Assembly (NCBI RefSeq): GCF_964204645.1
Contig: NC_134027.1
Span: 22,184,485-22,248,484, forward strand
Source: Tubulanus polymorphus
Taxonomy: Eukaryota; Nemertea; Palaeonemertea; Tubulaniformes; Tubulanidae
Direction of reading: 5' to 3'
DNA length: 64,000 nt
Shown here: positions 11,026 through 64,000 of the stretch, one piece after another
Numbering within the stretch: the stretch's first letter is position 1
How the letters are laid out: each line of letters starts with the position of its first letter
The notes under the pieces: model-generated
The model's database searches: none
What the model saw: the letters and a program-made list of their open reading frames with translations, nothing else
What the model was told of the DNA's origin: nothing
Translations under genes and position numbers: made by a program

Positions 11026-11092
<67 letters not shown>

Positions 11093-31000: not shown

Positions 31001-34000
31001 TGCGATGCAGAATATGGTGAATTGAAATCCATTACTGTGGAACCTTGTTATAACTACCTTGGAATGTAATGATTTCTCAGTTGATAAAAACTACATTTCG
31101 TCCTAGATTTTTTGATTTTGATTATTTCATACCGGATATAACGAGCTATTGGTTGAAAACTATCGTGCACATTTCGATATTGAATTGTAGATATGTATCT
31201 TTATAATGACTTGTATTGAGGTGACATAACGAACATATTTCTCGATCCCTGATGTTTGTTGTAGCGAGGTTCCACTGTATTTTCAATTATCACCGAGCGG
31301 GATAACAAAAATAATTGGTCCCAATTGATTCGAGTTAGTAGGAGTTAACTGTATATATATATATATATCGTAATTGTTTTTAGGTTGTGATGAAATCTAT
31401 TCGTAATGTCGAAGAATTAATCAGCACGTATAAATTGAAATTTCAACTCAACTCCGACAAAACCAACTGTGATTGGCTGTTAGCTAAAGGTGAAGGTCTA
31501 ATGCTTAAATTGAAGTAAGTAAATTAGGCTACGCAGTGGATTTAACTTACGCTAACTGTTATGTATCGATACATTATAGTTAGTGGGACTTTCATTACTG
31601 TTTTGAAAGTTAGTATGACTGTTAAGGCGGGTGAGATGTCTACCCCATCGAAGATGGAGGTCATTGGCCGTCGAACGTAGCCTTCTTGAAATTATTGTTA
31701 GCGTGTTACGGCCTGAAATTCATTGATGGATACCCATGAAACTTGATGTTAGAGTAGAGATGGGTTCACTTTTCCAGACTTGAACCAACAACTCTGATTG
31801 AACAATTAAGCAAACACTGTTGTTCATGTAGTATGCAATATGTCTGTTACCTTTCGTTCAATTTCTTGCCTATTTACTGTTTGCTATACGTATGTGGCAT
31901 TGAAACATTCTGGTTTGAATTCAGTTTACCAGGGGCGGATTTAGACCCTGTCGACCGTGTCGCTCGACACGGTAGGACTTATAAAGTGTCTTTTTATTTT
32001 TTCTCTGTATCAAAATTTGCTGTTGTAACCACCTGAGATACACAATAGATATTTTTCCTAAATATATAACCTATGTTTCTTGACTATATGCCTCTCAGAG
32101 ATGCTCAGAAAGCTCTAAAATGATAGGTAAATTTCAAAAATTTTGCTGATATACCTTTCCGCCCTAAATTAAGAATATATGCCCTTTTCATTGGTCGACA
32201 TAGTCACAACATGCCCCTGGATCCGCACCTGTTTACTAATTGTGAGTCGTCATTTGGGTAATTCAACATAATGATTGTTCTATCTATGACCTAAGTGAAT
32301 TTAACTGTACTCATAAGCTACGTCTACGCCTACGCTAGCACATTGAACCTGGGTTTCTATTAACGGTTTGACCAAAAACCTGAGTTCGCAGTGAATAGCG
32401 TCTACACTTAACTCACTGCTGCATTCAATGCGGAGTGTACTTTTCTTTCCAAAAGAAGGGTTTCTGAAACCGAGGTCTTATGGTCAACTCTGCGTTGTTT
32501 CTAGCGTAGTGTGGACTCATGACCCTGGTCTAAGAACAAGTGTAGATGGTAACCACTATAATTTTGAGTTACTGCAATTCCTTATTGTATCATTTTAGTT
32601 TTTCTGATGATGGGGTTTAGAAGTAACCCCGAAACTGTTAGAAAATAAACTTTTCTACATAATCTACCGTGGGTTTTTATTTGTTAACTCTACACTGAGA
32701 TTAACATCAGTTCACTATAGTCGAGTGTAGACGAGGCTATAGCTATCATTTGGTCAGCGACCTTTTAAGAATTATACTGCATTTTGATTGATTGATGTCT
32801 GTTGTAGTTTCCTGGTTGATCAATTAAATGTGATGCACTTATCTTCTTTCATAGGAAGTTAGAATGCGAACGATTGTATTACACGTACTGTCAGAATGAT
32901 TACGAACCGGCTAAAGTTCTCGGCAAAATCGAGTAAGTACTTTGCGCCAGTTTGGTTACCTTTGTTTTTATGAAACTTTCCAGGGAAAAAACATTCTGTA
33001 TTTGGAATCAGCGATCGTTCAATTTTCGTATATCTTATTTGAATACCCGGCATTTTATTTATGAATGAATAATGTAATGAGTTTTGTGTCATCGGATCTC
33101 TTATGATTTGGAAATCTTCAAAAGATCTAAGCTTCACCCAGTGAAAATAGAAATAAAGATCTAGCCTTCACAGATTGTCAGGACAGATCCAGAGACAGAT
33201 TTTCGACTGCCTTCTAAAAAGGAAATGGCAGTGAGCTGATACTACGTGATGATCCATGCTAGACAAGCGCCAATGGTGCAGAGTCGAAAATATTTCTAAA
33301 AATTGAAGATTGTTTGAGACGCAATCTTAGAGGATCCCAGCAGTTTTAAGAGACAAATTTAAGATTCTGAATTTCATAATCTGTCTTTGATCATCAAACA
33401 CAAATAAGGTGTTGAGAGTGAGGTGCCTTTTTTCTTGTAATTTCCGGCACACTCTGCCCTTTTGTGGCTTTTCTAGGTTACTCTTGTTTTTGATTGTGGA
33501 TATTTATTTAACATGTTTTTTTCAGTGCTGGGCCATATCAGCTCATGGAATCATATCCTGCTTGGTTGGCCTTTCCGTTACCTCAGATATTTTACCCCTT
33601 TTGATATATCATTATCTGCTCTTACCGTCCCGGCATTACTATGCCTTTTATTGTGTCCTCGATATGATGCCCTTTCGAGAAGTCATTTCACATTTAAATC
33701 AAAATACTGGTTATAAGTCTGTCACAAGAGTGTTATTTGATAGCTGAAACGATGATTGTTGCATTTTTGCATTTTTCCAATGTTGCGACTTTGAGATCAC
33801 GACGATCTTATTGAATTGACTACATTGGCGTCACTGAAGCGAAGTAAATTAAAAATTTTATGGTAAAATCGATCAAAATAAAATTTTTTATGTGTGTAGC
33901 AAACCGTTGGGAACCCGGGGCATGAAACCCCATCAGTATAGGTATGCCTTTAAGTGTGTCATGCAAATCAAACTCGATATCAATAGTTATGTCAATGAAC

Positions 34001-42610: not shown

Positions 42611-43585
42611 TTACCGGATCCTGGTGACAAGACGCGTCAATTCGTGGCGAAACAATTTCAAATTAGCCACGTAAATAAAGAAGTTGACGCCGCTGTTAGT
42701 GATCATCATGACTCCTCCGATCATGTTAGATAAATTTTGCAGATGCACCGGCAATTGTGACTGCACAGTCGACGTGCCCTGTAGGGTTTCAAACACCGCG
42801 CTGGGCACGTTGAATAGGAAATACGCCACGGTTATGCAAATCAGATTGCGCACGCATCTGCGTTCCTGTCCTGATGTGTTCGTGTTTTTGAAGCGAGCGT
42901 CTCGTCTGGCGAACTGACTGGCGATCAGTGCAGTGGATACGGCAAAACCGCAAAAAGGGATTATTATAGTCACAACATACGTATAAATGATCTTGATTTT
43001 AGTCGAGATACCCGGGACCATATACCATTCACAATGTCTCGTTACGCTGCCGTCGTGACTCTGGTAGGTTTTCAGGTAAAACTGGCCGATCATCGCGCTC
43101 TCGGAAACAGTGAAATATGCGAATACCGATAAGACCAAATACCATCGTCGAGTCCGCGTCACGAATCTTCCGACCTGTAACGGCGCCAACACGGCTACGC
43201 TGCGCTCAACGGCGAAACACAACAGCACCCAAGAAGAGGTTTTCATACCGATACTGATCAGAAACATACCCAGCTTACAGGAGACATCGCTAATCGCGAA
43301 GAACATGTATTTACCGTGAAAATTACCGGCCACGATATGAATCCGCTCGAGCGCTTTCAGCGAGAATGTAACGACGAAAATCGAATCGGAGAAGGCCAGC
43401 GGTACCAGGTACTGAAAGCTGCACGCGTCTATAGAGCGACGCACACGGAACAGAATGATTACGGACAGTGCGCTTCCCGCGAAACCGGTCATCATCCAGA
43501 AATAGATGTAAATGTTAAACGTGTACCAAACGGCGTTCTGCCAGGTGCGAGAAAAGAAAACTTGCGAGGTGGCGTTCAAACTCAT
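42611..43585 (-). CDS. Rhodopsin-class GPCR, intronless
   Basis: A 324-residue complete frame with seven hydrophobic segments. The N-terminus is short with an NAT glycosylation site. TM1 is around 20-45 (GSALSVIILF). TM2 has LAFSDSIF. TM3 carries the conserved cysteine (DVSCKLGM) and ends VERS in place of DRY; loop 2 has its partner cysteine (RHCEWY). TM6 is around NLICITVAYFLFNVPSAVF; TM7 has NSGVNFFIY, a variant of NPxxY. It resembles invertebrate peptide-type GPCRs; the ligand is unknown. Its 5' end and upstream DNA are duplicated at 40348-41110. Confidence 0.85.
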   Translation of the reverse strand: MSLNATSQVFFSRTWQNAVWYTFNIYIYFWMMTGFAGSALSVIILFRVRRSIDACSFQYLVPLAFSDSIFVVTFSLKALERIHIVAGNFHGKYMFFAISDVSCKLGMFLISIGMKTSSWVLLCFAVERSVAVLAPLQVGRFVTRTRRWYLVLSVFAYFTVSESAMIGQFYLKTYQSHDGSVTRHCEWYMVPGISTKIKIIYTYVVTIIIPFCGFAVSTALIASQFARRDARFKNTNTSGQERRCVRNLICITVAYFLFNVPSAVFETLQGTSTVQSQLPVHLQNLSNMIGGVMMITNSGVNFFIYVANLKLFRHELTRLVTRIR

Positions 43586-43839
43586 TCCGCTCTACACAGA
43601 ACCGTTGAATAATAACCGCCCAATTTGCATTCCAGTTCTATCCATGTCACATGGCTACCTGACAAGGCTCGCTCTGGTGGTTGACCCGGTAACTTGCGGT
43701 CTGTTGACTGGTCACAATGCCGCCGATTTATATAGATAGACCAGCGAAAGTATCGACGCGATAATGTGTATTAATATGTGTGCAGGCCTTAGTAAAGATG
43801 GCTTAGCTTTGTGCCACGGCCCGATCGAGTGAGAGAGTG

Positions 43840-43882: not shown

Positions 43883-46800
43883 GATAATGGATGCACATTA
43901 GTATATTCATCGCACCATCATCCCTACCGCTATCGCTCCCCGTTAATGCGTTTCAAGTAATTGCCAGCCATTGAGTTCAAATCGAATCGCCAATAGATAA
44001 CATTTAGAACGCAAACTCGAAAACTGTTCTCTGAGACGATAAGCTCTTTACGAAATTCGACACGTATCAAGCCTTCTTAACGAATATCATCCGAGAAAGT
44101 ATACATTTCGACAATAAATAGTTATATTTAGAGCCATCGTTGATAATAGTGCGTTTCGATTCTTATAGCTCTACTATGAGTAATTCATTTGGCGTGTATT
44201 TCTTCAAAGATATATAATACCGGGGTTGGCCCCAACTTCATCTGATAGATGCCTTTTCGTTTTTGTTCCTATTTTATAGATTTCCTGTGCTCACGAATGA
44301 CGGCTCTACACCATTTTGAGATTTTTGTCCATAATTTTCTAAGGACTAACCGGAAAATCTGTGAATTCCAGATATTTTCCAGGATTTCTCCAATTTCTCA
44401 GAAAAGCCAAAAAATGTTTCAAATTGAGAAATAGTCAAATTGTCTAAAAGAAGCGACTATGTCTATGATCTCTTCACTTACTGTATAGAACGTTGTTAAC
44501 AACGTCAAAATCAGCTTCAAGTTCGTCTCCATAGTCAGCTATGCGACAAGAAATGTGTAAAACAAACGAATAGCAATTCGCGTGCTTTATGAAATAATCA
44601 CAATATTTGGCACATAACTCTCATTCGTTTCGTGGCAATTGGCAGTAATTTCTCAAAACATATATACATGTTCTAATTTCCAGACAGGGAATCTATTTGA
44701 AATTATACGTCATTACATAACCACAAAATGTTACTGATGAAGTAATAGCCTCTTCTGTAATAAGGGTCGTAACGTGGTACGACCTTGTTTGGTCGGCATG
44801 CACAACGGGGTACCCGCAGTGGTGCTGTGGCAATCGAGGATTCCATTTATGGCAGGCGAGGATCCGACAGGTTCGCTAGTAGAGAGTTGGTCGGCCGCGT
44901 TAGATTTCTTCTACATTTCAATTAAGTCTAAATGAAATTTTCTCACAAATGAATCAATTATTAATGAAAACTATACCGATATCCGAGTGGAAGAATGAAA
45001 GTATTGTATGTTTGGTGGGTGCCGTGATAATATATGGATTCGGGAGTCTAAAACTCATGTTCATAGTTCATTGAAAATGAAATAATTTTGACCAAGGACG
45101 AATTACTGCTCATCACGCCATCTGGCGGGATAGGTGGTTTTGCAGGTATATATTGACTATATCGTCGGGTACCCCATTCCAATGAGCGGAAGTTAATATG
45201 ATGTTTGAGCCTGAGCTTGAAAGTTATGATCACAGGCAGATATTGAGCTCTATGGCCAACACATAACATCATAAATTGGTCCGCTAATAAAGTGTTTTGT
45301 GGTATAGATGACACGTTTGTATGAATTTGTGCTGAAAATAGATAATTTGTCAGGAATTAAGGACCAAAAATTGGCAATATTTTTGATACAAACTGAGAAA
45401 GTATGAAAACATTTGAGAACGCGTTTACTGTTTTTGAATATACACGGGGTGTATTTCGAACATGCTTTAAATTCCGGTACTGCTGTGCATTTCGGTGTGA
45501 GAATGATAACGGTCTGTTAATCAATGATTGAAAAAATGGAACCACGTTTTTAAGATACTTTATCAACATGTCTTAGTTAAAACAAAAACAAAAATCACAG
45601 GAAATAATACGTAGAGCTTAGGTTTCAATTTTACTTATCATGAGGACTCTACGTTCGACTGTGGCAATCGACGATTCCACTTGTGGCAAGCGGGGATCCA
45701 CCAGGTTGACAGGGTCGTCGCACTGATTTGCACGCCATCTAGTGGGATAGCCGGTGGCACGGAGTCCTCATCACGAAGTGGTACTTTCACAAATTCGTTC
45801 AATTCTTACCCAACCTCACTATAGCTACGCACCTGAAAGTTGATTGATATCGAGGGATTACATTGATTAACAGGGGATTTTAGCTAACAGTGAATTATTG
45901 AGGTTATCTCAACAGAAGCCTTTTTTCGTAAAACGTTCGGATGATGTATGCTTCGTTGCACGGCAAGATATCAAGTTTCATTAGTCAAGATAACACAATG
46001 TCTGTGGAAGCTTAAGCCGTGTGTGAACGTGAACGGCCCTTCGGGTAAGCAAATTTGGAAAGTTATTCTAGACGAAAATATTTCAAATGCAAAACGAATT
46101 TGGCCTTTTTGCCTTGTCATCCCTTGCGAATTCAATTTGAATCTGACCCCAATTCTAAAGATTGGGGATTCAATTTGGTGGATAGAATTTTAAAAAGTCG
46201 CATAATGAAAGTGAACAAATTCTGGCCCATTTCAATTCATTGCGTCATTTATGGAATTTGTATATACCAGGTAAAAATGCAGGTGCAAATTAGCATTCCG
46301 TGACTGTAAACCGGGCCGCTTCTATTGGAAATAATAAACTAATTATTAATGGTGTGAATATCAATTCTCCACGTTGCAGTCTTAAAAACGAAATTCAATA
46401 TATTCTCAAAACGTTTCTCTTTCCTGATATTGCAGTGAAGCATAGTATCCATAATGGTAGTCAACGCACATTTACAATACATTTTACGTAAATTGGTACA
46501 TTTTACGTAAATTCGTTTATTGAATTTCAGTGTAAAAGAAGTATCTTGGAGATTACGTGCCAGTGGTACAGTAAGAACATAATCTATATAATTATGTATC
46601 ATCAACGTTTGAAGATTCCTTTCCCCGCTCGTATCTTCTTAAAAAATTATTTTCATGTTAGGTTGCTGTTCATCCTTCTTCAGAAAATGTACATCCACGT
46701 GTTTTAGCGACGTCCTATTTATTGTCAGCGACCTGAAAGAAGAGTTCCATCAGCTTTAAGGCACCATTCGACTCTATAGATTTCAGTAAGGACAAAAAGA

Positions 46801-47255
46801 CAATGATTAATTCAATTATTTGTACAATCACATTTTACCACACGTTGCTAAAGATGTGGAACAAGTCCCGGGCGTCAAGTATAACGTTTGTTGATTGTTT
46901 ATATATCAATATAACGGCTTTAGCGACATTGGCTGTGCTCTAGGACAACCAGCGGGAAAAATGGCTTCAACGAAAGCTGCAATTATCTATTGTTCTATTC
47001 GAAAAACGCGCTGAAGATTTGGCTTGGAAAACTGGTCGATATTGTCGCCAGTCTATTGATTTCCAATTAGATGAATTAGTTGATAGTTTCAGCCATATTT
47101 AATTTTTTTGAAAAACAATGAGTTTACCGTGCAGCATGTCAGTGTTTCTTTGTTTCGATATTTTAATAATAGATGAGCTACGCTTCGCGTTCAAAAAGGA
47201 TGTAATTCACTACTCTTTGTAGATTCGTAGTTAGAGGGAAGAAATTGCGACGGCA
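43880..47255. other. Region upstream of PAN-GON gene A
   Basis: No functional gene is seen apart from an exon-like remnant at 46945-47101. The 'gccatctggcggg' dispersed repeat lies at 44,850-45,185, with a second short relative (CGCCATCTAGTGGGATAG) at 45,733. The promoter of the PAN-GON gene should lie close to 47,256, but no core element can be assigned. Confidence 0.5.
46948..47101 (+). pseudogene. Exon-like open segment, copy A (unrecognised)
   Basis: After CTCTAG a frame reads DNQREKWLQRKLQLSIVLF and continues for about 52 residues to a stop; it is charged and helix-like. The twin at 58237-58395 follows TTATAG. All five differences I see between the copies in this frame change the protein, including loss of the stop in B, so it is not maintained as coding. 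It could be a relic exon; no family is recognised. Confidence 0.35.
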
Positions 47256-50200
47256 ATGAAAATAAGAAGCATGACTTACCTCGTTCACATTCTTATGACT
47301 TGTTTGCTGATTAACTGCGAATGTTTCGAAACGGGCTCGGTATATTTCGCAGAAGTAGCGACAAGAGGAAACGATTACTCGATAGATGGACCGTATCTGT
47401 CTATTGATAATAATTCAGCCTCTTTGATCAGTTGCAGCGCCGCGTGTTCACTGGATACTAAATGCAAATCGTTCAATTATCACGGAGATTCCAGCGTTTG
47501 CGAATTGAGTGACAAGTTACCAATTGGCCCGACGTTCAGGCAAAGAAATGGCACAGCATTTAGATTTAAGGTCAGTATAGGATATTTTTGCACTATTTTT
47601 GCACTATTCAAACAGCATGTTCCATAGAATATGTCCATACGCTGCTTAAGCGTTTACGTAAATTGGCTCTGGATCCAGTTCGAAAATTGTGCGCTTGATT
47701 TCTACTCTCCGGATCAAGTTCCATAGTTGTATTTGTTTGATTTGACTCTGGATCTATGAGTTCCATAATTTGAGGTCTAATTTGACTCCACAGTTGTATG
47801 AGTGTAATTGTGCGGATTAAGTCCCACGATCGAAATATTAGGAAATGACTATAATTCAATTAACTACAAATTTAGCCTGCTTCAATTTTGGATCAGCATT
47901 CTGTGACTGTAAACCAGTGAAAAAAGTGAATAGCACTTTAAAAACCCCAAGCGATCCTTTTTCTAAACATTGTCAATATCAATATCAAGAGAGTGGAACC
48001 TCGTTACAGCGAATATCAGCACCAGAAAATATGTTTGTTTTCACCGATTAGTCGTTATATCCAGGATGAAATGCATTAAATTTTCTTATTTTGGACGGAA
48101 TTCTATATTTGTTGTATCCAATAAATCGCTGTGTCCGAGTTCAAGCAAAGGAAGGCATTAAAATGAAAAGTTAGTTTAAACGAAGCGTTAAAACGAGAAA
48201 TGAAAAAATGTGAAGCAAATTGTTTGAGATTGAGTATGTGGCCCCAAAATCAGCCTTCATTTGAGCTAAATTGATTAATAAGTAAATTTGGTTATCAAAT
48301 TTCAGTGCAGCGTTCTCGAAGATGATTGCCAGCGCTATAGTAAGTTTATAATACGGGATATCGACAAATTCAAGTTCTGGAATTACGCGTTTGATGGCGC
48401 TAGTCAGAACCGGAAATTTGAACCTAAATCCGCCATGCTCTAGTTCTTTTGCAATGAAAATCTCTCGCTTCAAGTTTTCAATGAGCGATATTTTACTTAC
48501 TATTTATCGTCACGCATAATCCTTTATATATGATATCCTACCGCTACGATGGATATGATAAAACCTCACTGCAAAGGCTAGAAATTACTATAAATGTCCT
48601 AAAATTATCAAAAAATATTTTGCAACTGCTGACGATGCAAAGACTGGTTGCCAGGTGTCACATGGTGGCAGCACTTGACGGCCCAATTTTGATTGTTGGT
48701 TCGAGTCCTGGTCCTTTTCATATTTTTATTATGAATCTACCAGTTTAGTCCTTTAAAATCAATTTTATTTCATAATATTATTTTATGTTTATCAGTGTAG
48801 CCTGCAATAAATTTACTTTAAGAGTCCTGAACTCAAAAACAAAGTGATGACACCCGGCACCAGTCATTGCTTCGAGCGTCATCGCTAAATCTGTTATTTT
48901 TGGTAATTTTTTTACATTTCTAGTAATATTTAGCGTTCGAAGTGAGGTTTTATCGAATTCAACACATTGTCAGGATATCATATTCAAAGGATTATGCGTG
49001 CCGTTTTATAGTAAGTAAAATATCGCTAACTAAAAGATTGAAGCGGGAGATTTTTATCGCAAATGAACTAGAACATGGCGGATTTAGGTTCCAATTTCCG
49101 GTTTTGACTAGCGCCATCAAACGGGTAATTGAAGAACTTGAATTTGTCGATATCCCGTATTAATCATCAAAGTTTGAAATATATACAATCTAGAATATCT
49201 CTTCTCATAGAGATTTTAAGTTATGGGCAAGTCATACAAAATAAATCTTATTTCATCTTTAACGGTGATTTTTCATTATTTTTCGTCATCACCTCAAGTA
49301 ACCAAAGATAATTTCTCATATTTCGATGGTCACTGCTAGATCGTGGGAACGTATGCCATTTAGCATGATAACTGCTCATTGAAGAAACTAGCTTATGACG
49401 ATACGGCCATTTTGTTTCATCTGCAGGTCTGAAACCGGTGTCGTGTACGGATGTGTTGATCAGAGGCGATACCACAGACAAGACTTACGATTTGTACCCG
49501 ATAAAAAGCGCGTATAAACGCAAATTCAGAATCTTCTGCCACGCGATGATGTCACTAACACCTAGAGAGTACCTTCCACTTCCGGCCGGGCGGAAAAATA
49601 ACTTCAGCGAGGCAAAGAAAAGCGGGATATATAGAGTGTGGAAGGACTGGTGTTACATCAAATTCTGGCGAGTTCGTATCTCTATTTGGGTAAGTAAATA
49701 TTGTATCTTATATCATTGTAATATCTACAGACGTAGGCCTACGTACGTCGTGCTGAATATGATTTATTGTTTGGTGGTAACCTGTTGATGGTACTTCAAA
49801 GTGATATAGATAATACTTTTCTGTACTTGTTGAATAACGAGTATGCGATGAACGTATGCCGTGTCAAATTGACGCAATAAAGATCTTCCCATTATTCGAG
49901 TTAACAGCACGTTGGAAATTAGAGAAAAAAACAACCAATATATTGGAAATCGAAGTTTCTCGACTGGCAGAGAATTGTATTCTTTATAACAGAAACGTCG
50001 GAATTAATGAGTTGTAAAAAATCTTTATCGAGAAAAGCAGTTTGTCGAACGTACCTGAATACTTTCGCAGTGTAGTCTTTATGAATTTTCGATGGTAGCC
50101 CATTCAACTGTTTTCTAGCGTGATTGACAATAGAGTTTATTGATAGCGTATACATCAGGTCAAAAGTTCAACAAACAAATACGGCGATTTAATTGACTAA

Positions 50201-51654
50201 AATAGGCCTAATGTCGTCCAAGGATTTCGATTTGAGGAGAATTCTAATTTCGGAAAATGTAAAAAAATGGATATCGAAGTGTACCGTATACGAAAAATAA
50301 CGTTATTTTTGTTCATATTTCAGAATTACATCGTTATCAAGACAGATTATAGATTCGCTTCCGTCAATTGTAACCCGACTAATAAAGTGAAATACGGCGA
50401 AGCGAAAGCGTGTGCTAGATACAACTCTGGAATGGGTGCGGCAAGGATTGACTTGACGCAAACCGGATTCAAGATAGCCCATGGGGTTAGTTAGCTTAAC
50501 CTTGAGCATTTATAACTAGACGAATCGAATGGGTTTGTTCAACTGAAAATTGAAGATAATTGCATGATCATTAGGCCATCTTGACTGTACTTGTGACTAT
50601 ATTCGTTTCATTTGCCGAGAATATTCATCAGAGTCGTTAGTTGAAAATCGATTTTTTTCCGTGGAAGTATACGGTATAACGAAAAACCCACACATATAAG
50701 AGCAATTTGAAATTGACAAGAATTTATCAATGATTGAGATAGACGTTCTTTGCTAATTTGACAATTGCTAGTGATTGCCAAATTCAAAAACCGGAATAAG
50801 TAAATAAAAGAGAAAAGTAACTTGAAAGTTAATTGACGCCTTGAAGAATGACTCATACATATTGCTTAATATTGACGACAACGATTCATAAATATGACAT
50901 AGATGATAGGATATTAAGGGCCAATAAAGATATTTTGAATTTAAATATCATATCGATAATTGAATTGAATTGACCGACAGCCAGTCTAGCTCCGATATAT
51001 TAATGGTGTAGCGTACATTCTCTCAAAATTTTTAAAAAAGATATGAAATCAAATGAAAAATATGAGTCATATGATTAGTTCAATCACAAAACAAAACGCC
51101 AATTTTGATAATTGTTTTTTTCAAACGCCAATATTGATAACGTAATGCACATCGAGTAGCACAAAACCCCTTAAATAACGCACAGTTCAATGTATGTTAA
51201 CATTATCGTAATGGTTTTGACGACGCGAAATGATAATCGTGAAAATTACATTTGGTTAAAATAACCGCCAAAGTAGTTTATAGTTGCCGCAATGTGCTTC
51301 TCTCTGTCTCCAGTCTTAAGTTTTTGATAATTTTGAATTGATTCTAATTGAAAACAGAGAAACAGGTCTACAGCTGCATTAGCAAACCTGTAATATCCTC
51401 ATGGAATCCTCGCTTGTCACCACAGCGTCGCCGTTATCCTATGCGCCAGGCCTGGCATAACCTTGCTACCGTTCCCTCGACGTCTATTGCTAACTATTTT
51501 ATAATTTCAGGTAACGTGGAAGAAATACGGATACGGTAGATGGAACATGGTCGGCCCGACGTTTACTGCCAATAGACAAATCATGAATATCAAATGCCGC
51601 GCACAATGCGGGGGATGCAATAACAATAACGCTCTTCAGTTGACACCGTTGTAA
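47256..51654 (+). CDS. Secreted PAN/apple plus GON domain protein, copy A
   Basis: Five exons: 47256-47570, 48306-48339, 49427-49689, 50324-50485, 51511-51654; phases 0, 0, 1, 0, 0; 305 codons. Residues 1-23 are a signal peptide (MKIRSMTYLVHILMTCLL). Residues 25-115 form a PAN/apple-like domain with CSAAC, CKSFNY, CEL and a last pair in the microexon (CSVLEDDCQRY). Residues about 117-305 are a GON domain: CTDVLIRG, FRIFCHAM, PREYLPLPAG followed by NNFSEA, WCYIKF, FASVNCNP, GEAKACARYNSG, TGFKI, and the terminal CRAQCGGC signature. GON domains are known from the C-terminus of ADAMTS9, ADAMTS20 and nematode GON-1; here there is no protease, thrombospondin repeat or membrane segment. Likely an extracellular matrix or secreted binding protein; ligand unknown. 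Exon 4 uses the donor GGG/GTTAGT, also kept in copy B. Confidence 0.85.
48351..49160. mobile_element. 810-bp foldback element in intron 2 of gene A
   Basis: The long arms are inverted copies: ATACGGGATATCGACAAATT at the left end and its complement at the right end, with related sequence for about 240 bp (48351-48595 and 48925-49160). TA flanks both sides (48349-48350 and 49161-49162), as for Tc1/mariner insertions. The matching site in copy B is empty. The interior has a B-box-like GGTTCGAGTCC at 48698. No transposase frame. Confidence 0.85.
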
Positions 51655-54600
51655 AATAACGCCCTAAAATCCCACAATTACAGAACGAATGTCGAATATT
51701 GATGTATATTATATAGTCGATCTAATTAAACCGGTCAAGCTTTGTGTACGGCATTAAAGTGCGTGTGTCAAGTAACACTGCGTTCACCGGTTAGTGTTAT
51801 AACAGCAAATGACCGTTGACAGTCGACAGCTAGAGTAAACGATGAAAATAGGTTACAGCCTGTCAACCGGTCGACCATTACTTAAGCTATCTTCCATCTT
51901 TATTTTCTGTTGGTCGGATGTATACATTCTACGTATCTCTAAACGCCCTCTCTACGACATTTTAACGTGCGCAGGCCCTTAACTACACATGGTTTGGTAT
52001 TCACAGATTGTTACGCAATCATACGTCATAACATTCCACCGACCCATGTATGGAATGTTTACGTTCCTACACACGTCACATTATTCTAAAAATTCTTTTT
52101 GCACTCGCCGTAGCCCATGGCCTAACCATTGGTTTCGCTTCGCTGTGAGAATTTTCAAGTTATTCCAAGACATGTTTATTTACATAACTATTTATTGTTT
52201 ATGTATGGCGCCAGTAGAGTCTGATGATAGCAACACTGGCCATGAACTCCAACTCTCGTATTTTCTTGTTCGTTATTTATTGTTCGACCGCTGATAGCTG
52301 AAAGCTCAATAATATATTTCCTGAAAGCCCAACAATATATTTCCTAAAAGCTAAAAAACCGATTTTACTATTTCCGACACCAGGCAAGTTGACTTGTAAA
52401 TGAACCTGCCTAGCGTTGAAAACCACATTCACGAATAAACGCACCATAATTTCCGTATAAGGAAAATGTATCTCTCGATACAAATTCAAGCATGAATCCC
52501 GACGTATCAACCTTTTCGGAGTCTTTCTTTTTGCATCATGGAATCGTACCTATCATCGTTTCAACACGGACAGTGGGTTTCACCAAGGTGGAAAATATGC
52601 ATTTCCATTTACTTAAGGCCACGCAAAGAAATACCTTAGTTATGTAATCAATTTTTTGGAAAGTAACGAGAGGGGTTAAATTTTATTTCAATTGCTTTAA
52701 AAAAAGATTGAAATACAAAGTTCAACCAGAGACTTATAGAAGAGACGCCAGAAGGAAGTTTTTCTACTAATGCCACGAACAAATACTAGTAATGCAAGAA
52801 GAACATTTGCAGAAACTTAATTTAGAATTAAGAAGCTACTTTAACCTAAAAAATCAAACTATATCGACTCATATCGAAACGGAGACAAAAATTTCTGCTA
52901 TTTTCACGCTTCATCGAAATGAGGTAAAATGAAACGAACTCAACCGTTGTCACAGTAAAATGTGGATTACCTATTTGGGAGGGTGAGCATATAAACGACC
53001 GCAGAATAAAAACGCTGTCGCACAATATACAGCTATGTGGGCGAGCAGATTTTGATTTTTGTTGAGAAAATTGATGCTTTCCCGATGCGGGCGAGCGCAT
53101 TTGCTTTTTTTTATTGGGGAACTTGTTTATGACGCGGGCGGCATTTGACTTTCTTAAGATACTAGGGTATTTCTCTGAAATGGCACTAAATATTCCTAAT
53201 ATTTCCAATGCATATTTCTCATAGCATGAATAGTTTAGAAATATCGCTTTCATTCCCAAAACCACTTTGGATTCGAGAAACTCTAGCACACCGAATGCTT
53301 GTCTTTTCGGAGAATGTGCATTCTCTTGCACCTGTTCTGCCTCTCACTGAAATTCCATATTTGAACTTCAATCGACCATTTATCAGAAGTTTTGGAGTCT
53401 TATTTATTATGTTGACAGTCAAATGACATATACATTTGCGGGAAAAGTTACAAAATGTCAAATTATGAGGTACGCACACCCAAAACAAAGCGAAATATCC
53501 CAAAAAGATCGTGGACAATCAAAAATAAATAGACTTTAGTCGTGATTGCTTCCTTCTATCGGCTAGGCGTGGGAGATTAAAGCCGGGCGTAGGTCGGCTT
53601 TGTATACAACTGGGCAAAAATACGTCATGCATGGTTGAGCGCTACCGTGTTTTTGAATGGCTTTAAAAATTGAGAAGAACCAAAATTACAGATTGTTCCA
53701 TTGTGTATATTCAATGTTGATGACCAGTTGCCAGGTGAAAAAAAATTGATTCAAAATCACGAAATTACTGGTTTACATTCCGTGTGATGTTTCCCTGTGG
53801 AGAATTGTAAAAACCAAGGTATTTTAACTATCGCCAGCAGGAATTGAAGATTTCGTGTTCAGAAGGTAACAGATTTTGAGAAATTTTGAATCCGATGTGT
53901 CAATATTCGACGTCGAGCTCAACAGTGCAATGGTTAGAATGGTTATGAAGGTGAACAAATTTCAGAGAAGCTTAATTAGTAAAGCGGAGCAATACTTATA
54001 TTAAGGAGATATCTGTCTGTGTTGATATGATTATCATGTCATCAATCCTAAATGACAGCGGATCATTTATTGATAAACGCTCCTAATGCAATAAGCCTTA
54101 TCACTTGTACTGGTTCGACTTGGTTCGATACGGTTCGTATTTGCCTCACAATAACGCGCACGCCGTGAATGTAAAGCGCCCGCACGACATCCAGGAGCAT
54201 CGTTGCCTAATTTAGTTTCACAACTTGTACCAAAAGCTACAACGTTAATTATACATGTACTTCGATCAGCTTTCATCATGAACTGAAATAGTTGACTGTA
54301 TACGACTCATTCGTTTTATCATAATGAAAAAGAACTTTTCCAGTAAAATGGGATTCTCTCTTGTCCTCTTTGATATCAGATGTAGGTATTTGTGTTTGTT
54401 TAAAAGCAGGATTAACGGTGATCGGATATATATCAGGCCACACCAAAAAATCCTATTTCTCGGGCGGGGCAATCACCAAAATGGGTAGATAGGTAGGACA
54501 TTTTCTTTTCTTGTTATAGAAAAAAAGATCGTTTATTCTTCTATCAGTGGGTAGGTTGCCGTAAATAATTTTTACTGGACTAAATTTTTAGTCAGGAATA

Positions 54601-55363
54601 TGATTAACAGCTAGTAGACCACAATAATAAAAGGAAATTGAGGTGTTTGTACAATTAACTATAAAAAAACTATATTTTGAGCATATTTCACGGAATTCCT
54701 GGAATTTTAAAATCCAAGGTCGCCATCAAAGTCCGATTAGCAAAGTTGTCTTAGCATGACTGAGCCATTTCCAGAATCAAATTTTAAATCCGATATAATA
54801 AAATGTTTTTATGATGTTGATCTCAGTGCCGACATCACGATTTGATATTTAAAAAAATTTACGAGAAAGGAGAGTTTGGTAGTCGGTCGGCCACATATAT
54901 ATTTTTGAAAAAAGTTATTTCACCTAAAATTTTCAAAAAGGGTCGGTAGGCGATTATACTTTATTTTGAAAACGATTATTTGAAATGGGGAAATATCGGG
55001 TCGGTCGGGACGGAAAACAGGGTTTTCCTTTGGTGTGGCCTCACTGGGATCTGCTGTAAGTTCATATACTTAATATAAAATGACTACTGAATATATCACA
55101 AGGTTATACAACCGACGGGATGTAGCCGAATCTCGTTGATAAAAACACCTAGTTCTGTTTGGATTTTGGACTTTATCCTGACTGAAAATAGCCTCTGGGT
55201 TCTTGGTTATAACGATGAAATACATACAACTCGATTGAAGTGATTACGAAGTCAGATAACATATGCATCCACAATAAGTCGAGTCGATATCGAAGTTTTT
55301 TTCTCAAATGACGCTGGAAGATATTTGAAACACATGCATAAACACGGGAGTATCGTGTCCGTT
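51655..55363. other. Downstream part of the duplicated unit A
   Basis: To 52,704 it is shared with copy B. From 52,705 to 55,363 it is unique in the window, and no gene is recognised. Open frames at 52846-53331 and 53219-53518 (minus strand) overlap each other and have no family features. Confidence 0.5.
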
Positions 55364-55650
55364 CTAATCGCAACGCGTCCGTCTTAAACAGCGACACGCC
55401 CTCCCAAAACCTTTTAACAATTTCACCGTTTCGACCCTGAATCTATCGTTGGTTGCACAATATACGATATAATTCATGGTTGAGTCTAATGGAGTCATTA
55501 TGTCGTATCCTATCATTGATAGCTTTCCCATCACGTGTGGATCGTTATGTCTCGGCTGTGGCAAGCCTGCTTGCACTAGGATATATTCATAAACGCCAAT
55601 CGACGTAGGAAATTCTAAAACGATGAACAACATAACAATGGCAACGATTC
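55364..55650 (-). pseudogene. C-terminal fragment of a third GPCR, cut by the duplication breakpoint
   Basis: Reading leftward from the (AT)n tract the frame gives LRIVAIVMLFIVLEFPTS (a TM6), a loop, then DIMTPLDSTMNYIVYC (a TM7 with an NxxxY-type motif) and a basic tail RFRVETVKLLKGF, and ends at 55364. The upstream five membrane segments are absent, because at 55,657 the microsatellite begins and at 55,742 copy B starts. It is not close to the other two GPCRs. If the duplication is a simple tandem one, an intact version would lie after copy B, beyond the window. Confidence 0.65.
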
Positions 55651-55654
55651 TGAG

Positions 55655-55656
<2 letters not shown>

Positions 55657-55742
<86 letters not shown>
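55657..55742. repeat. (AT)n microsatellite at the duplication junction
   Basis: About 43 AT units, directly between the broken GPCR and the first base shared with copy A. The likely site of the rearrangement. Confidence 0.97.
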
Positions 55743-55745
<3 letters not shown>

Positions 55746-58236
55746 GAGCGCTGCTTTTGAATTCCAGATATTTTCCAGGATTTCTCCAATTTCTCAGAAT
55801 CGCCAAAAAATGTTTCAAATTGAGAAATAGTCAAATTGTCTAAAAGAAGCGACTATGTCTATGATCTCTCCACTTACTGTATAGAACGTTGTTAACAACG
55901 TCAAAATCAGCTTCAAGTTCGTGTCCATAGTCAGCTATGCGACAAGAAATGTGTAAAACAAACGAATAGCAATTCGTGTGCTTTATGAAATAATCACAAT
56001 ATTTGGCGCATAACTCTCATTCGTTTCGTGGCAATTGGCAGTAATTTCTCAAAACATATATACATGTTCTAATTTCCAGACAGGGAATCTATTTGAAATT
56101 ATACGTCATGACATAACCACAAAATGTTACTGATTAAGTAATAGCCTCTTCTGTAATAAGGGGCGTAACGTGGTACGACCTTGTTTGGTCGGCGTGCACA
56201 ACGGGGTACCCGTTGTGCTGCTGTGGCAATCGAGGATTCCATTTATGGCAGGCGAGGATCCGACAGGGTCGCTAGTAACTATACCGATATCCGAGTAGAA
56301 GAATGAAAGTATTGTATGTTTGGTGAGTGCCGTGATAATATATGGATTCGGGAGTCTAAAACTCATGTTCATAGTTCATCGAAAATGAACTAATTTTGAC
56401 CAAGGACGAATTACTGCTCATCACGCCATCTGGCGGGATAGTTGGTTTTGCTGGAACCCACCACGGGTTTGACTATATCGTCGGGTACCCCATTCCAATG
56501 AGCGGAAGTTAATAGGATGTTTGAGCCTGAGCTTGAAAGTTATGATCATAGGCAGATATTGAGCTCTATGGCCAACACATAACATCATAAATTGGTCCGC
56601 TAATAAAGTGTTTTGTGGTATAGATGACACGTTTGTATGAATTTGTGCTGAAAATAGATAATTTGTCAGGAATTAAGGACCAAAAATTGGCAATATTTTT
56701 GATACAAACTGAGAAAGTATGAAAACATTTGAGAACGCGTTTACTGTTTTTGAATATACACGGGGTGTATTTCGAACATGCTTTAAATTCCGGTACTGCT
56801 GTGCATTTCGGTGTGAGAATGATAACGGTCTGTTTATCAATGATTGAAAAAATGGAACCACGTTTTTAAGATACTTTATCAACATGTCTTAGTTAAAACA
56901 AAAACAAAAATCACAGGAAATAATACGTAGAGCTTAGGTTTCAATTTTACTTATCATGAGGACTCTACGTTCGACTGTGGCAATCGACGATTCCACTTGT
57001 GGCAAGCGGGGATCCACCAGGTTGACAGGATCGCCGCACTGATTTGCACGCCATCTAGTGGGATAGCCGGTGGCACGGAGTCCTCATCACGAAGTGGTAC
57101 TTTCACAAATTCGTTCAATTCTTACCCAACCTCACTATAGCTACGCACCTGAAAGTTGATTGATATCGAGGGATTACATTGATTAACAGGGGATTTTAGC
57201 TAACAGTGAATTATTGAGGTAATCTCAACAGAAGCCTTTTTTCGTAAAACGTTCGGATGATGTATGCTTCGTTGCACGGCAAGATATCAAGTTTCATTAG
57301 TCAAGATAACACAACGTCTTTGAAAGCTTAAGCCGTGTGTGAACGTGAACGGCCCTTCGGGAAAGCAAATTTGGAAAGTTATTCTAGACGAAAATATTTC
57401 AAATGCAAAACGAATTCGGCCTTTTTGCCTTGTCATCCCTTGCGAATTCAATTTGAATCTGACCCCAATTCTAAAGATTGGGGATTCAATTTGGTGGATA
57501 GAATTTTAAAAAGTCGCATAATGAAAGTGAACAAATTCTGGCCCATTTCGATTCATTGCCTCATTTATGGAATTTGTATAAACCAGGTAAAAATGCAGGT
57601 GCAAATTAGCATTCCGTGACTGTAAATCGGGCCGCTTCTATTGGAAATAATAAACTAATTATTAATGGTGTGAATATCAATTCTCCACGTTGAAGTCTTA
57701 AAAACGAAATTCGATATATTCTCAAAACGTTTCTCTTTCCTGATATTGCAGTGAAGCATAGTATCCATAATTGTAGTCAACGCACATTTACAATACATTT
57801 TACGTAAATTCGTTTATTGAATTTCAGTGTAAAAGAAGTATCTTGGAGATTACGTGCCAGTGGTACAGTAAGAACATAATCTATATTATTATGTATCATC
57901 AACGTTTGAAGATTCCTTTCCCCGCTCGTATCTTCTTAAAACATTATTTTCATGTTAGGTTGCTGTTCATCCTTCTTCAGAAAATGTACATCCACGTGTT
58001 TTAGCGACGTCCTATTGTCAGCGACCTGAAAGGAGAGTTCCATCAGCTTTAAGGCACCATTCGACTCTATAGATTTCAGTAAGGACAAAAAGACAATGAT
58101 TAATTCAATTATTTGTACAATCAAATTTTACCACACGTTGCTAAAGATGTGGAACAAGTCCCGGGCGTCAAGTAACGTTTGTTGATTGTTTATATATCAA
58201 TATAACGGCTTTAGCGACATTGGCTGTGTTATAGGA

Positions 58237-58401
58237 CAACCAGCGGGAAAAATGGCTTCAACGAAAGCTGCAATTATCTATTGTTCTATTCGAAAAACGC
58301 GCTGAAGATTCGGCTTGGAAAACTAGTCGATATTGTCGCCAGTCTATTGATCTCCAATTAGATGAAATAGTTGATAGTTTCAGCCATATTCAATTTTTTT
58401 G
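58237..58401 (+). pseudogene. Exon-like open segment, copy B
   Basis: Twin of 46948-47101. The same frame has L to S, G to S, F to L and L to I changes, and the stop TAA has become CAA, extending the frame to TGA near 58400. The absence of silent changes suggests no constraint. Confidence 0.35.
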
Positions 58402-58546
58402 AAAAACAATGAGTTTACCGTGCAGCATGTCAGTGTTTCTTTGTTTCGATATTTTAATAATAGATGAGCTACGCTTCGCGTTCAAAAAGGATGTAATTCA
58501 CTACTCTTTGTAGATTCGCAGTTAGAGGGAAGAAATTGCGACGGCA

Positions 58547-61500
58547 ATGAAAATAAGAAGCATGACTTACTTCGTTCACATTCTTATGACTTGTTTGCTG
58601 ATTAACTGCGAATGTTTCGAAACGGGCTCGGTATATTTCGCAGAAGTAGCGACAAGAGGAAACGATTACTCGATAGATGGACCGTATCTGTCTATTGATA
58701 ATAATTCAGCCTCTTTGATCAGTTGCAGCGCCGCGTGTTCACTGGATACTAAATGCAAATCGTTCAATTATCACGGAGATTCCAGCGTTTGCGAATTGAG
58801 TGACAAGTTACCAATTGGCCCGACGTTCAGGAAAAGAAATGGCACAGCATTTAGATTTAAGGTCAGTATAGGATATTTTTGCACTATTTTTGCACTATTC
58901 AAACAGCATGTTCCATAGAATATGTCCATACGCTGCTTAAGCGTTTACGTAAATTGGCTCTGGATCCAGTTCGAAAATGGTGCGCTTGATTTCTACTCTC
59001 CGGATCAAGTTCCATAGTTGTATTTGTTTGATTTGACTCTGGATCTATGAGTTCCATAATTTGAGGTCTAATTTGACTCCACAGTTGTATGAGTGTAATT
59101 GTGCGGATTAAGTCCCACGATCGAAATATTAGGAAATGACTATAATTCAATTAACGACAGATTTAGCCTGCTTCAATTTTGGATCAGCATTCTGTGACTG
59201 TAAACCAGTGAAAAAAGTGAATAGCACTTTAAAACCCCAAGCGATCCTTTTTCTAAGCATTGTCAATATCAATATCAAGAGAGTGGAACCTCGTTACAGC
59301 GAATATCAGCACCAGAAAAGATGTTTGTTTTTACCGATTGGTCGTTATATCCAGGATGAAATGCATTAAATTTTCTTATTTTGGACGGAATTCTATATTT
59401 GTTGTATCCAATAAATCGCTGTGTCCGAGTTCAAGCAAAGAAAGGCATTAAAATGAAAAGTTAGTTTAAACGAAGCGTTAAAACGAGAAATGAAAAAACA
59501 TAAATTGTTTGAAATTGAGTATGTGGCCCCCAAATCAGCATTCAGTCTATAAATTTGTTTATCAATTTTCAGTGCAGAGTTCTCGAAGATGACTGCCAGC
59601 GCTATCGTAAGTATGTAATTAATCATCAAAGTTTGAAATATATACATTCTAGAATATCTCATCTCATAGAGATTTTAAGTTATGGGCCAGTCATACAAAA
59701 TAAATCTTAACTCATCCTTCAAGGTGATTTTTCTTTATTTTTTGTCATCACCTCAAGTAACCAAAGATAATTTCTCCACTTTTCCTCTTTATTTCGATGG
59801 TCACTGCATCTACACTGTGTGTGTGTGTGTGTGTGTGTGCGTGTGTGCGTGTGTGCGTGTGTGCGTGTGTGTGCAGTATCCCTTGAATGACGCGTAGTTA
59901 TCACTGTATACAATCCCCAGTGTAATGGTTTTTTAAAATCTTAAAATAGGGATTGTCCCTGTTATTCATTTGGTTGGTAAATTTCGTTGGATTTTCTGAT
60001 TGAGTGTCCCTTACAGACCCACCACACCTGCCGGGAGCGAAACAGGTGGTTTGATTTTGAAATCGGAAATCGAAGTACAGATATAGTTGTGTGATCGGCG
60101 GTCGAGTTAACAGAATATTTCTAAATCGAAGTACATAATTAGTGTATGTTTTTTCCGGCGTCAAAATCTCGTTATATCTATATGTCTGGAACACGATGCC
60201 TAATGTTTGATTGGGGAGGCTAAAAATCCGGAAAAAAGTCAATTGAAATTAGCGCAATTTTAATCGGGTGGGAACGTATGCCATTTAGCAGGATAACTGC
60301 TCATTGAAGAAACTAGCTTATGACGATACGGCCATTTTGTTTCATCTGCAGGTCTGAAACCGGTGTCCTGTACGGATGTGTTGATCAGAGGCGATACCGC
60401 AGACAAGACTTACGATTTGTACCCGATAAAAAGTGCGTATAAACGAAAATTCAGAATCTTTTGCCACGCGATGACGTCACTAACACCTAGAGAGTACCTT
60501 CCGCTTCCGGCCGGGCCGAAAAATAACTTCAGCGAGGCGAAGAAAAAAGGGATATATAGAGTGTGGAAGGACTGGTGTTACATCAAATTCTCGCGAGTTC
60601 GTATTTCTATTTGGGTAAGTAAATATTTTATCTAATATCATTGTAATATCTACAGACGTATGTCTACGTACGTCGTGCTGAATATGATTTATTGATTGAT
60701 GGTAACCTGTTGATGGTACTTCAAAGTGATATAGGTAATACTTTTCTGTACTTGTTGAATAACGAGTATGCGATGAACGTATGCCGTGTCAAATTGACGC
60801 AATAAAGATCTGCCCCATTATTCGAGTTAACAGCACGTTGGAAATTAGAGAAAAAAAACAACCAATATATTGGAAATCGAAGTTTCTCGACTGGCAGAGA
60901 ATTGTATTCTTTATAACAGAAACGTCGGAAATGAGTTGTAAAAAATCTTTATCGAGAAAAGTAGTTTGTCGAACGTACCTGAATACTTTCGCAGTGTAGT
61001 CTTTATGAATTTTCGATGGTAGCCCATTCAACTGTTTTCTAGCGTGATTGACAACAGAGTTTATTGATAGCGTATACATCAGGTCAAAAGTTCAACAAAC
61101 AAATACGGATATCGAAGTGTACCGTATACGAAAAATAACGTTATTTTCCTTCATATTTCAGAATTACATCGTTAACAAGGCAGATTATACATTCGCTTCC
61201 GTCAATTGTAACCCGACTAAGAAAGTGAAATACGGCGAAGCGAAAGCGTGTGCTAGATACAACTCTGGAATGGGCGCGGCAAGGATTGACTTGACTCAAA
61301 CCGGATTCAAGATAGCCCCTGGGGTTAGTTAGCTTAACCTTGAGCATTTATAACTAGACGAATCGAATGGGTTTGTTCAACTGAAAATTGAAGATAATTG
61401 CATGGTCATTAGGCCAGCTTGACTGTACTTGTGAATATATTTTTTTTCATTTGCCGAGAATATTCATTAGAATCGTTCGTTGAAAATCGTTTTTTTTTTT

Positions 61501-62684
61501 CCGTGGAAGTATACAGTATGATTATACAGAATGATTGAGATACACGTTCTTTGCTAATTTGATAATTGCTAGGAATTATCACGATTGATAGAACACTATA
61601 TCCGTGTTGACGCGATGTAGAGAGAATCCCACAATTATAACGAAAAATTCCGAAATTGTAACTTCGAGATAGTAGTTTATTTCAACGTTTCTAATGACTA
61701 TTAGAATATAGTCGAAACGTTGAAATAAACTACTATCTCGAAGTTACATTTTCGGACTTTTTCGTTATAATTGTGGGATTCTCTCTACATTGCTAGGGAT
61801 TGCCAAATTAAAAAACTGGAATAAGTAAATAAAAGAGAAAAGTAACTTGAAAGTTTATTGACGCCTTGAAGAATGACTCATACATATTGCTTAATATTGT
61901 CGGCAACGATTCATAAATATGACCTAGTTGATATGATATAAAGGGCCAATAAAGATATTTTGAATTTAAATTTCATATCGATAATTAATTGAATTGACCG
62001 GCAGCCAGTCTAGCTCCGATATATTAATGGTGTAGCGTACATTCTCTCAAAAATTTAAAAAAGATATGAAATCAAATGAAAAATACGATTCATAGGATAA
62101 GTTCAATCACAAAACAAAACGCCAATTTTGATGATTGTTTTTTTCAAACGCCAATATTGATAACGTAGTGCACATCAACTCAAACAGAACCCCTTAACGC
62201 ACAGTTCAATGTATGTTAACATTATTGTAACGGTTTTGACGACGCGAAAAAATTATAATCGTGAAAATTACATATGGTTGAAATAACCGCCAAAATAGTT
62301 TATAGTTGCCGCAATGTGCTTCTCTCAATCTCCAGTCTTTAGTTTTTGATAATTTTGAATTGATTCTAATTGAAATTGAGAAAAGAGAGAAACAGGTCTA
62401 CAGCTACATTAGCAAACCTGGTGTATACTCATGGAATCCTCGCTTGTCACCACAGCGTCGCCGTTATCCTATGCGCCAGGCCTGGCATAACCTTGCTACC
62501 GTTCCCTCGACGTCTATTGCTAACTATTTTATGATTTCAGCTAACGTGGAAGAAATACGGATACGGTAGATCGAACAAGGTCGGCCCGACGTTTACTGCC
62601 AATAGACAAATCATGAATATCAAATGCCGCGCACAATGCGGGGGATGCAATAACAATAACGCTCTTCAGTTGACACCGTTGTAA
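58547..62684 (+). CDS. Secreted PAN/apple plus GON domain protein, copy B
   Basis: Exons 58547-58861, 59573-59606, 60352-60614, 61162-61323, 62541-62684; every exon has the same length as in copy A, again 305 codons with no break. It keeps the signal peptide, the PAN cysteines, the GON core and the final CRAQCGGC. By hand count about 17 residues differ from copy A against about 10 silent changes. Replacements include R to P and W to S in exon 3, I to N, R to T, N to K and H to P in exon 4, and V to L, W to S and M to K in exon 5. None hits a cysteine. Function as for copy A; both look able to make protein. Confidence 0.85.
59807..60267 (+). mobile_element. Insertion private to copy B, with (GT)n and a dispersed repeat
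   Basis: Relative to copy A (cactgct.agatcgtgggaacg) about 460 bp are added in intron 2. They contain (GT)n at 59816-59873 and, at 59945-60093, the repeat also found inverted at 15628-15785. The exact class is unknown. Confidence 0.7.
61574..61788. mobile_element. Palindromic element private to copy B, with 9-bp target duplication
   Basis: Arms 61615-61690 and 61715-61790 are nearly perfect inverted copies (ends ATGTAGAGAGAATCCCAC / GTGGGATTCTCTCTACAT). ATTGCTAGG occurs at 61565-61573 and again at 61789-61797, bracketing the insertion. Copy A has a single aattgctag at the site. It lies in intron 4 of gene B. Confidence 0.8.
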
Positions 62685-64000
62685 AATAACGCCCTAAAAT
62701 CCCACAATTACAGAACGAATGTCGAATATTGATGTATATCATATAGTCGATCTAATTAAACCGGTCAAGCTTTGTGTACGGCATTAAAGTGCGTGTGTCA
62801 AGTAACACTGCGTTCACCGGTTAGTGTTATAACAGCAAATGACCGTTGACAGTCGACAGCTAGAGTAAACGATGAAAATAGGTTACAGCCTGTCTACCGG
62901 TCGACCATTACTTAAGCTATTTCACCCGCCTTTACATTAATTTCATCAATTATTCATAATTCTTAATGTTTCTTATAGATCCATCGCGTAGACAATTATA
63001 AGGTAGATAATGTAATGTCAATATTTCGAAATGCCAAAACTGCACTAGTGCAGCATTTATAATTTATTCACCAGAGCATTTCCAACCGGGTAACTGTTTT
63101 GGTAGTTGTTCTTCCGTGTTGTACCATTGGATCTTCTGGTCATTGTGGTTCCTCGACCTGCTTATGATCCTCTTAATGTAAAACAACTCGCACGACTTAT
63201 TAAGTCTATCTATCCATCTTTATTTTCTGTTGGTCGGATGTATACATTCTACGTATCTCTAAACGCCCTCTCTACGACGTGTGCAGGCCCTTAACTACAC
63301 ATGGTTTGGTATTCACAGATTGTTACGCAACATTCCACCGACCCATGTATGGAGTGTTTACATTCCTCCACACGCCACATTATTCTGAAAAAAAATTCTT
63401 TTTGCACTCGCCGTAGCCCATGGCCTAACCATTGGTTTCGCTATGAGAATTTTCAAGTTATTCCAAGACATGTTTATTTACATAACTATTTATTGTTATG
63501 CATGGCGCCAGTAGAGTCTGATGATAGCAACACTGGCCATGAACTCCAACTCTCGTATTTTCTTGTTCGCTATTTATTGTTCAACCGCTGATAGCCGAAA
63601 GCTCAATAATATATTTCCTGAAAGCCCAACAATATATTTCCTAAAAGCTAAAAAACCGATTTAACTATTTCCGACACCAGGCAAGTTGACTTGTAAATGA
63701 ACCTGCCTAGCGTTGAAAACCACATTCACGAATAAACGCACAACAATTTCCGTATAAGGAAAATGTATCTCTCAATACAGATTCAAGCATGAATCCCGAC
63801 GTATCAACCTTTTCGGAGTCTTTCTTTTTGCATCATGGAATCTTACCTATCATCGTTTCAACACGGACAGTGGGTTTCACCAAGGTGGAAAATATGCTTT
63901 TCCATTTACTTAAGGCCACGCAAAGAAATACCTTAGTTTTGTAATAATTTTTTGGAAAGTAACGAGAGGGGTTAAATTTTATTTCAATTGCTTTAAAAAA
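62685..64000. other. Region downstream of PAN-GON gene B
   Basis: It matches 51655-52704 of copy A except for the private insert at 62921-63212, which has no recognised content. No gene is seen; ATTAAA-type signals near 62756 and 62786 could serve for polyadenylation. Confidence 0.5.

Follow-up and report, generated by a model that had tools for sequence, protein, structure and literature searches.

Putative secreted PAN-GON proteins form a multi-copy family in Tubulanus polymorphus, where GON domains also lie beside other extracellular domains

The window analyzed here, a 64,000-nucleotide stretch of the genome of the nemertean Tubulanus polymorphus (assembly GCF_964204645.1, contig NC_134027.1, positions 22,184,485 to 22,248,484 of the forward strand), holds two intact predicted four-exon genes on the + strand, A (47256–51654) and B (58547–62684), each of which encodes a PAN domain followed by a GON domain. 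In gene A, exon 1 (47256..47574) carries the ATG, a hydrophobic N-terminus, PAN (residues 40–87), and a candidate phase-1 donor; exon 2 (49427..49689) encodes the N-terminal part of GON, with a segment that resembles fibrinogen-related domains (FReDs); exon 3 (50324..50485) encodes the middle part, which scored 18.7 bits when scanned alone, under the Pfam GON cut-off of 22.6 bits; and exon 4 (51511..51654) encodes the cysteine-rich C-terminal part and the stop codon, and alone gave no Pfam match. Gene B follows the same order, with the ATG, hydrophobic N-terminus, and PAN (residues 40–88) in exon 1 (58547..58865), the N-terminal and middle parts of GON in exons 2 (60352..60614) and 3 (61162..61323), and the end of GON with the stop codon in exon 4 (62541..62684). 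All introns are GT-AG, both reading frames are open, and each coding sequence spans 888 nt including the stop, giving proteins of 295 residues rather than the 305 stated in an earlier, sequence-only reading of this DNA. Of the 295 positions, 15 hold different residues in the two proteins, and both end in LQLTPL. Hydrophobic N-termini, defined as a mean Kyte-Doolittle value of ≥2.3 across 10 residues and thus distinct from a signal-peptide prediction, were present in all six proteins tested, comprising five PAN-GON models (A among them) and one signal-GON model.

Pfam scans of the spliced proteins placed both domains over their cut-offs in both genes. GON (PF08685) matched A at E = 2.7e-21 (76.8 bits) and B at E = 1.2e-22 (81.2 bits), and PAN_1 (PF00024; cut-off 21.4 bits) matched A at E = 3.5e-7 (30.4 bits) and B at E = 3.1e-7 (30.6 bits); the sole further family listed for either protein, PAN_4, fell under its cut-off. 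A chance match to GON was rejected, the E-value lying near 1e-21. Because the GON segment of A, aligned alone, spans model positions 3–194 of 199, the domain was rightly described as a full GON, and the outcome in which no GON would be found did not occur. The absence of metalloprotease and thrombospondin repeats was likewise borne out, with neither family listed for A at E up to 10 or for B at E up to 0.01. The PAN_1 domain of gene A (47373..47516, +) contains cysteines 60, 64, 70, and 82, the core disulfide cysteines of PAN, and all 8 PAN segments aligned (A and B among them) share these four without exception. Within GON, A and B each have eight cysteines (113, 144, 182, 210, 224, 277, 281, and 284), whereas 10 conserved cysteines are stated for the ADAMTS9/20 module in a passage of PMC4448532; this count argues against an ADAMTS-type GON, but not against membership of Pfam GON. 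Like the GON of ADAMTS9, ADAMTS20, and GON-1, that of A and B is a near full-length Pfam domain that ends a protein whose N-terminus is of the secretion type; unlike them, proteins A and B lack a metalloprotease or TSP1 family, carry PAN instead, and are only 295 residues long.

The two genes lie in a tandem duplication, in which seven aligned pieces of 44362–52704 and 55758–64000 are 93.6–97.3% identical at a spacing of 10.5–11.4 kb. The unit is ∼11 kb, with approximate limits of 44362..55757 for copy 1, which contains gene A, and copy 2, which contains gene B, runs from 55758..64000 and extends beyond the window end (no strand assigned to either). Intron 1 of gene A also contains a 266-bp inverted repeat (48349–48614 and 48897–49162, 85% identical), possibly a mobile element; no comparable pair inside gene B was reported in the self-comparison of the window.

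GON is described in part of PMC4448532, for the animals named there, as the last module of ADAMTS9, ADAMTS20, and GON-1, which favors taking the A and B exons for the 3′ part of a longer ADAMTS gene; in a related reading they would be non-functional fragments, in favor of which stand two other copies on contig C3, one (copy E) a solitary last exon whose surrounding sequence matches A at 99.5% identity across 975 bp and the other (copy G) limited, in the DNA read, to PAN plus the first exon of GON. Both versions are considered highly improbable. The frames of A and B are open and their splice sites canonical, contrary to the fragment version, and gene A has its own ATG, a hydrophobic N-terminus, and in-frame TAG codons 24 and 36 nt 5′ of that ATG; the order of hydrophobic N-terminus followed by PAN recurs in paralogs elsewhere (L016, L032, and L033). 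The genome assembly (G000; 267.8 Mb, 77 contigs) yielded 32 GON exon matches at E ≤ 0.001, 9 ADAMTS_CR_2 matches, and at least 46 TSP1_ADAMTS matches among the 150 of 229 candidates scored. None of the 9 ADAMTS_CR_2 matches lay within 3.6 Mb of any of the 32 GON matches, and no TSP1_ADAMTS match among the same 150 candidates lay within 324 kb of one. Since the nearest detected ADAMTS mark was thus 324 kb from any detected GON, an origin of the A and B exons as ADAMTS 3′ ends was rejected; as far as these searches reach, the larger ADAMTS gene that the sequence-only reading had named as the contrary outcome did not emerge. The genome likely contains no ADAMTS-GON at all, within a search that diverged GON domains or unscored TSP1 candidates may have escaped and that did not include metalloprotease families.

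The pairing of GON with PAN outside ADAMTS holds well beyond the two genes. Grouped by distance, the 32 GON matches form ∼24 loci (23 to 25, according to where the limit is set), of which ∼14 are PAN-GON, at five places on four contigs where PAN precedes GON on one strand: C3:22.2, C3:4.2, C4:26.69, C6:12.39, and C7:16.2 Mb. The largest group, at 22.23–22.45 Mb of C3, comprises seven PAN-GON copies (A, B, C, D, F, and I complete, G partial), so that six complete models extend over ∼225 kb, or five should F and I be the same gene; four lie at C7:16.2 Mb, three of them read and one presumed from coordinates, and C3:4.2, C4:26.69, and C6:12.39 Mb are single loci. Both domains exceeded the Pfam cut-offs in six spliced models, namely A, B, F, one C7 copy, C3:4.2, and C4, with the split junction codon omitted in the last four and no ATG in the C7 model. 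Four of the five places appear in the Pfam PAN list, and the fifth, C6:12.39, gave PAN_1 at E 9.4e-6 on its own exon. PAN is common in this genome, given at least 102 matches among the 150 of 214 candidates scored; for 20 GON loci, a rough model of uniform placement predicts 0.08 PAN places within 5 kb of GON, and five were seen. A candidate phase-1 donor compatible with the GON acceptor follows PAN in 8 of 10 PAN exons. On the GON side, the candidate acceptors included one of phase 1 for 19 of 21 GON starts, and where only a single candidate was present the acceptor was phase 1 in 9 of 10, as expected for a shuffled extracellular module.

Sequence divergence within the C3 array differs sharply between exons. 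Between A and F, exon 1 (residue 22 onward) has a synonymous divergence (dS) of 0.076, whereas the GON exons together have a nonsynonymous divergence (dN) of 0.31 and a dS of 1.69; because their ratio is ∼0.18, this pair suggests that GON is under constraint. A 275-bp tract of gene A (47303..47577, +) is 94.9% identical, without gaps, to exon 1 of F and I; it starts inside the hydrophobic N-terminus and ends 3 bp beyond the exon, and the adjoining intron sequence of A gave no alignment with these diverged paralogs. The pattern is probably the product of ectopic gene conversion restricted to the sole stretch still alike, the PAN exon. Copies F and I are themselves inverted and near-identical (98.7–100% in four pieces; PAN-GON segments of L026/L027 against L030/L031), and L028/L029 contain an inverted repeat of 8.3 kb that is 99.8% identical; such inverted copies would be either very young duplications or assembly duplicates.

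Other GON loci adjoin other partners, in a survey that excluded the fourth C7:16.2 copy and two fragments at C6:18 Mb. On C12, Kringle exons lie just 5′ of GON exons on the same strand at 8510000–8519999 (L038) and 8644000–8653999 (L037), with three open reading frames matching at E 2.4e-20, 9.1e-22, and 1.4e-12; the Kringle exon near 5045 of L038 contains an in-frame stop, and this copy may be broken. On C10, EGF-like exons lie 5′ of two GON domains (6e-9 and 2.9e-12) on the same strand, and the one EGF open reading frame tested reached E 0.0036, under its cut-off. No partner was recognised in the DNA read at C1:12.18 and C6:21.27 Mb. At C7:19.5 Mb, two tandem copies, 19512000–19521999 (L035) and 19532000–19541999 (L036), consist of trypsin exons (E 4.5e-6) followed by two GON domains on the same strand, and each copy has the NDIALL and GDSGGP motifs; GON thus adjoins a non-ADAMTS class of protease here. 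This arrangement is also what would favor PAN-GON proteins as competitors or regulators of GON proteases, in which a protease-free GON would fill the anchoring site by which trypsin-GON is positioned on its substrate. Such a role seems improbable; no shared ligand is known, and the C7:19.5 GON starts are just 18% and 30% identical to that of gene A.

From their order, strand, and spacing, we infer that the partner exons and GON belong to one transcript at these loci, and that GON would be a phase-1 extracellular module shuffled onto PAN, Kringle, trypsin, and EGF. Because of these varied partner exons and its FReD-like start, GON looks like a mobile extracellular module, of which ADAMTS9, ADAMTS20, and GON-1 would be one set of carriers, and the larger finding appears to be a genome in which GON acts as a promiscuous module.

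The kinship with FReDs emerged from profile comparisons. A profile of 14 GON segments recovered 8 sequences from the PDB at E ≤ 10, all FReDs by name, the best being tenascin-C (E 2.1e-4 over the full sequence and 8.7e-4 over its best single stretch). A profile of 16 GON N-termini recovered 28, of which 25 were FReDs by name and the other three were two peroxygenase chains and one unrelated protein; the top four were tenascin-C, the best at E 9.3e-6 (whole sequence) and 1e-4 (best stretch). Reversed GON N-terminal segments, the control, gave five matches, none of them a FReD and the best at 0.28. In hhalign, the GON start aligned with eight FReD N-termini of the same genome at a probability of 66.6% (P 5.4e-5), or 57.4% with a longer GON alignment, compared with 0.06% for reversed GON and 0.14% for PAN. 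Two invariant cysteines of the GON start align with two invariant cysteines of the FReD start, which in FReDs are bonded. Fibrinogen_C had no match at E ≤ 1 in any of 14 single GON segments; only profiles and a consensus reveal the likeness. The first ∼60 residues of GON are therefore described here as probably remote homologs of the FReD N-terminus, with which they align in tenascin-C/R, angiopoietins, techylectin-5A, and FIBCD1, whereas the remainder of GON has no match in these proteins. Searching the PDB by sequence brought up no solved structure of GON.

The FReD-like start, the multi-copy C3 array, and the PAN domain are also the features that would favor PAN-GON as immune recognition proteins, an expanding secreted lectin-like set with a role like that of the FReD-based fibrinogen-related proteins (FREPs). 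This is regarded as a rather unlikely alternative; the dN and dS of GON between A and F indicate constraint, not diversifying selection.

The reading preferred here, to which we give an even chance, is that A and B come from a gene family with multiple copies, whose small secreted PAN-GON proteins would act as soluble two-headed binders. The protein would be secreted; PAN would bind one partner, a glycan or a protein, as does the PAN of MIC4, HGF, and plasminogen; GON would bind a second; and the soluble, two-headed whole would serve as an adaptor or as a lectin-like protein for recognition, located in matrix, mucus, or body fluid, with no enzymatic activity expected. The gene set would grow by tandem duplication and be made more uniform by gene conversion confined to an exon. 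HGF, plasminogen, and apicomplexan micronemal proteins bind proteins or glycans, and all were matched by the PAN profile (A2); the HGF N-domain, the plasminogen PAN, and the apicomplexan MIC4 share with A and B a PAN_1 over the cut-off and the four invariant cysteines. To our knowledge, GON is not among the features of HGF, plasminogen, or MIC4. The earlier suggestion that a stand-alone GON has its own ligand, to which PAN would add carbohydrate or protein binding, is plausible. We encountered no GON ligand in the open-access literature.

A different role is suggested by a single exon at C6:10.765 Mb (L034), in which a hydrophobic N-terminus leads directly into GON (GON E 3.9e-12). The C. elegans construct gon-1(sig_GON) (PMC4517882) likewise consists of a signal sequence and GON without a protease, to which PAN-GON adds one domain; the construct is artificial, whereas the arrangement in L034 is genome-encoded. 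Because the two layouts match, a role in the secretory pathway is the main rival to extracellular binding: PAN-GON and signal-GON proteins, in the manner of the GON of GON-1/ADAMTS9, would aid cargo in passing from the endoplasmic reticulum (ER) to the Golgi, with PAN selecting or holding the cargo. According to parts of PMC4517882, the worm construct rescues the secretion defects of gon-1 mutants, and its authors hold that the requirement is for GON rather than for the protease domain. A secretory role for the nemertean proteins nevertheless seems rather unlikely; A and B end in LQLTPL, which is no ER-retention ending, and recognition of the L034 gene is incomplete, with a second GON piece that scores 19.0 bits, under the cut-off, and no last exon found in the locus DNA. 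Tandem expansion and recent conversion would also be unusual for a housekeeping secretory factor.

Several observations weigh against the interpretation of A and B as secreted two-headed binders with a FReD-related GON. The C. elegans work itself indicates a role of GON inside the secretory pathway. The Pfam Fibrinogen_C model matched the GON consensus (A1) only at E = 0.067 (13.4 bits, cut-off 22), the FReD likeness is confined to the first third of GON, and the hhalign probabilities, at 57–67%, are not near 100%. The dS between A and F is saturated for exons 3 and 4 singly, and the counts between A and B (dN/dS 0.023/0.050) are too noisy to show constraint on young copies. The assembly may hold a single gene twice as copies F and I, and the last GON match at C6:12.39 contains a TAG. 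The phases of PAN donor and GON acceptor are mismatched in 2 of 10 PAN exons (L016 and L033). The GON tree does not unite all of the PAN-GON copies, with 7 of 13 inner branches open, and a single origin of PAN-GON is therefore not established.

A broader scenario, offered only tentatively, is that GON is an old and mobile extracellular module related to the FReD N-terminus, came off ADAMTS entirely in this lineage, and was refitted to PAN, Kringle, serine-protease, and EGF partners; the protease-free forms would be natural equivalents of the signal-plus-GON construct active in the worm, and the ADAMTS role a special case. UniProt contains short "GON domain-containing" entries for some invertebrates. 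Among the best-ranked open-access papers listed, none describes GON joined to PAN or Kringle or linked with FReDs, and novelty is thus provisional; papers that mention the GON domain deal mostly with ADAMTS or matrix, a portion of PMC4224354 lists GON among matrix domains, a table of the sea-anemone matrisome study PMC12549020 may also name GON, and the kinship of gon-1 is treated in a section of PMC549037. Natural GON proteins of this small size, free of a large protease, would lend themselves to expression for structural and binding work. If the GON start is shared with FReDs, this suggests a fold and a class of ligand for the part of GON-1 that is important to secretion in the worm, and a genome in which GON lies beside serine-protease and Kringle exons, with none detected on ADAMTS, lets the role of GON itself be asked.

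Elsewhere in the window, exons of a plexin-like gene lie at 592–18915 (−), with matches to Sema (E 0.021, weak), PSI (2.9e-6), and IPT/TIG (1.4e-8), and presumably form one gene. Two single-open-reading-frame genes for rhodopsin-family G-protein-coupled receptors lie at 33987–34979 (−) and 42611–43591 (−), matching 7tm_1 at E 3.2e-17 and 3.2e-18, respectively. In the wider genome, a search of the assembly for COX1 gave no candidate, whereas ten homeobox matches, all on the + strand within 317 kb (C6:5318228–5634747) and 61–95% identical to an Antennapedia-type query, constitute a Hox cluster, which marks the animal as a bilaterian, probably a spiralian.

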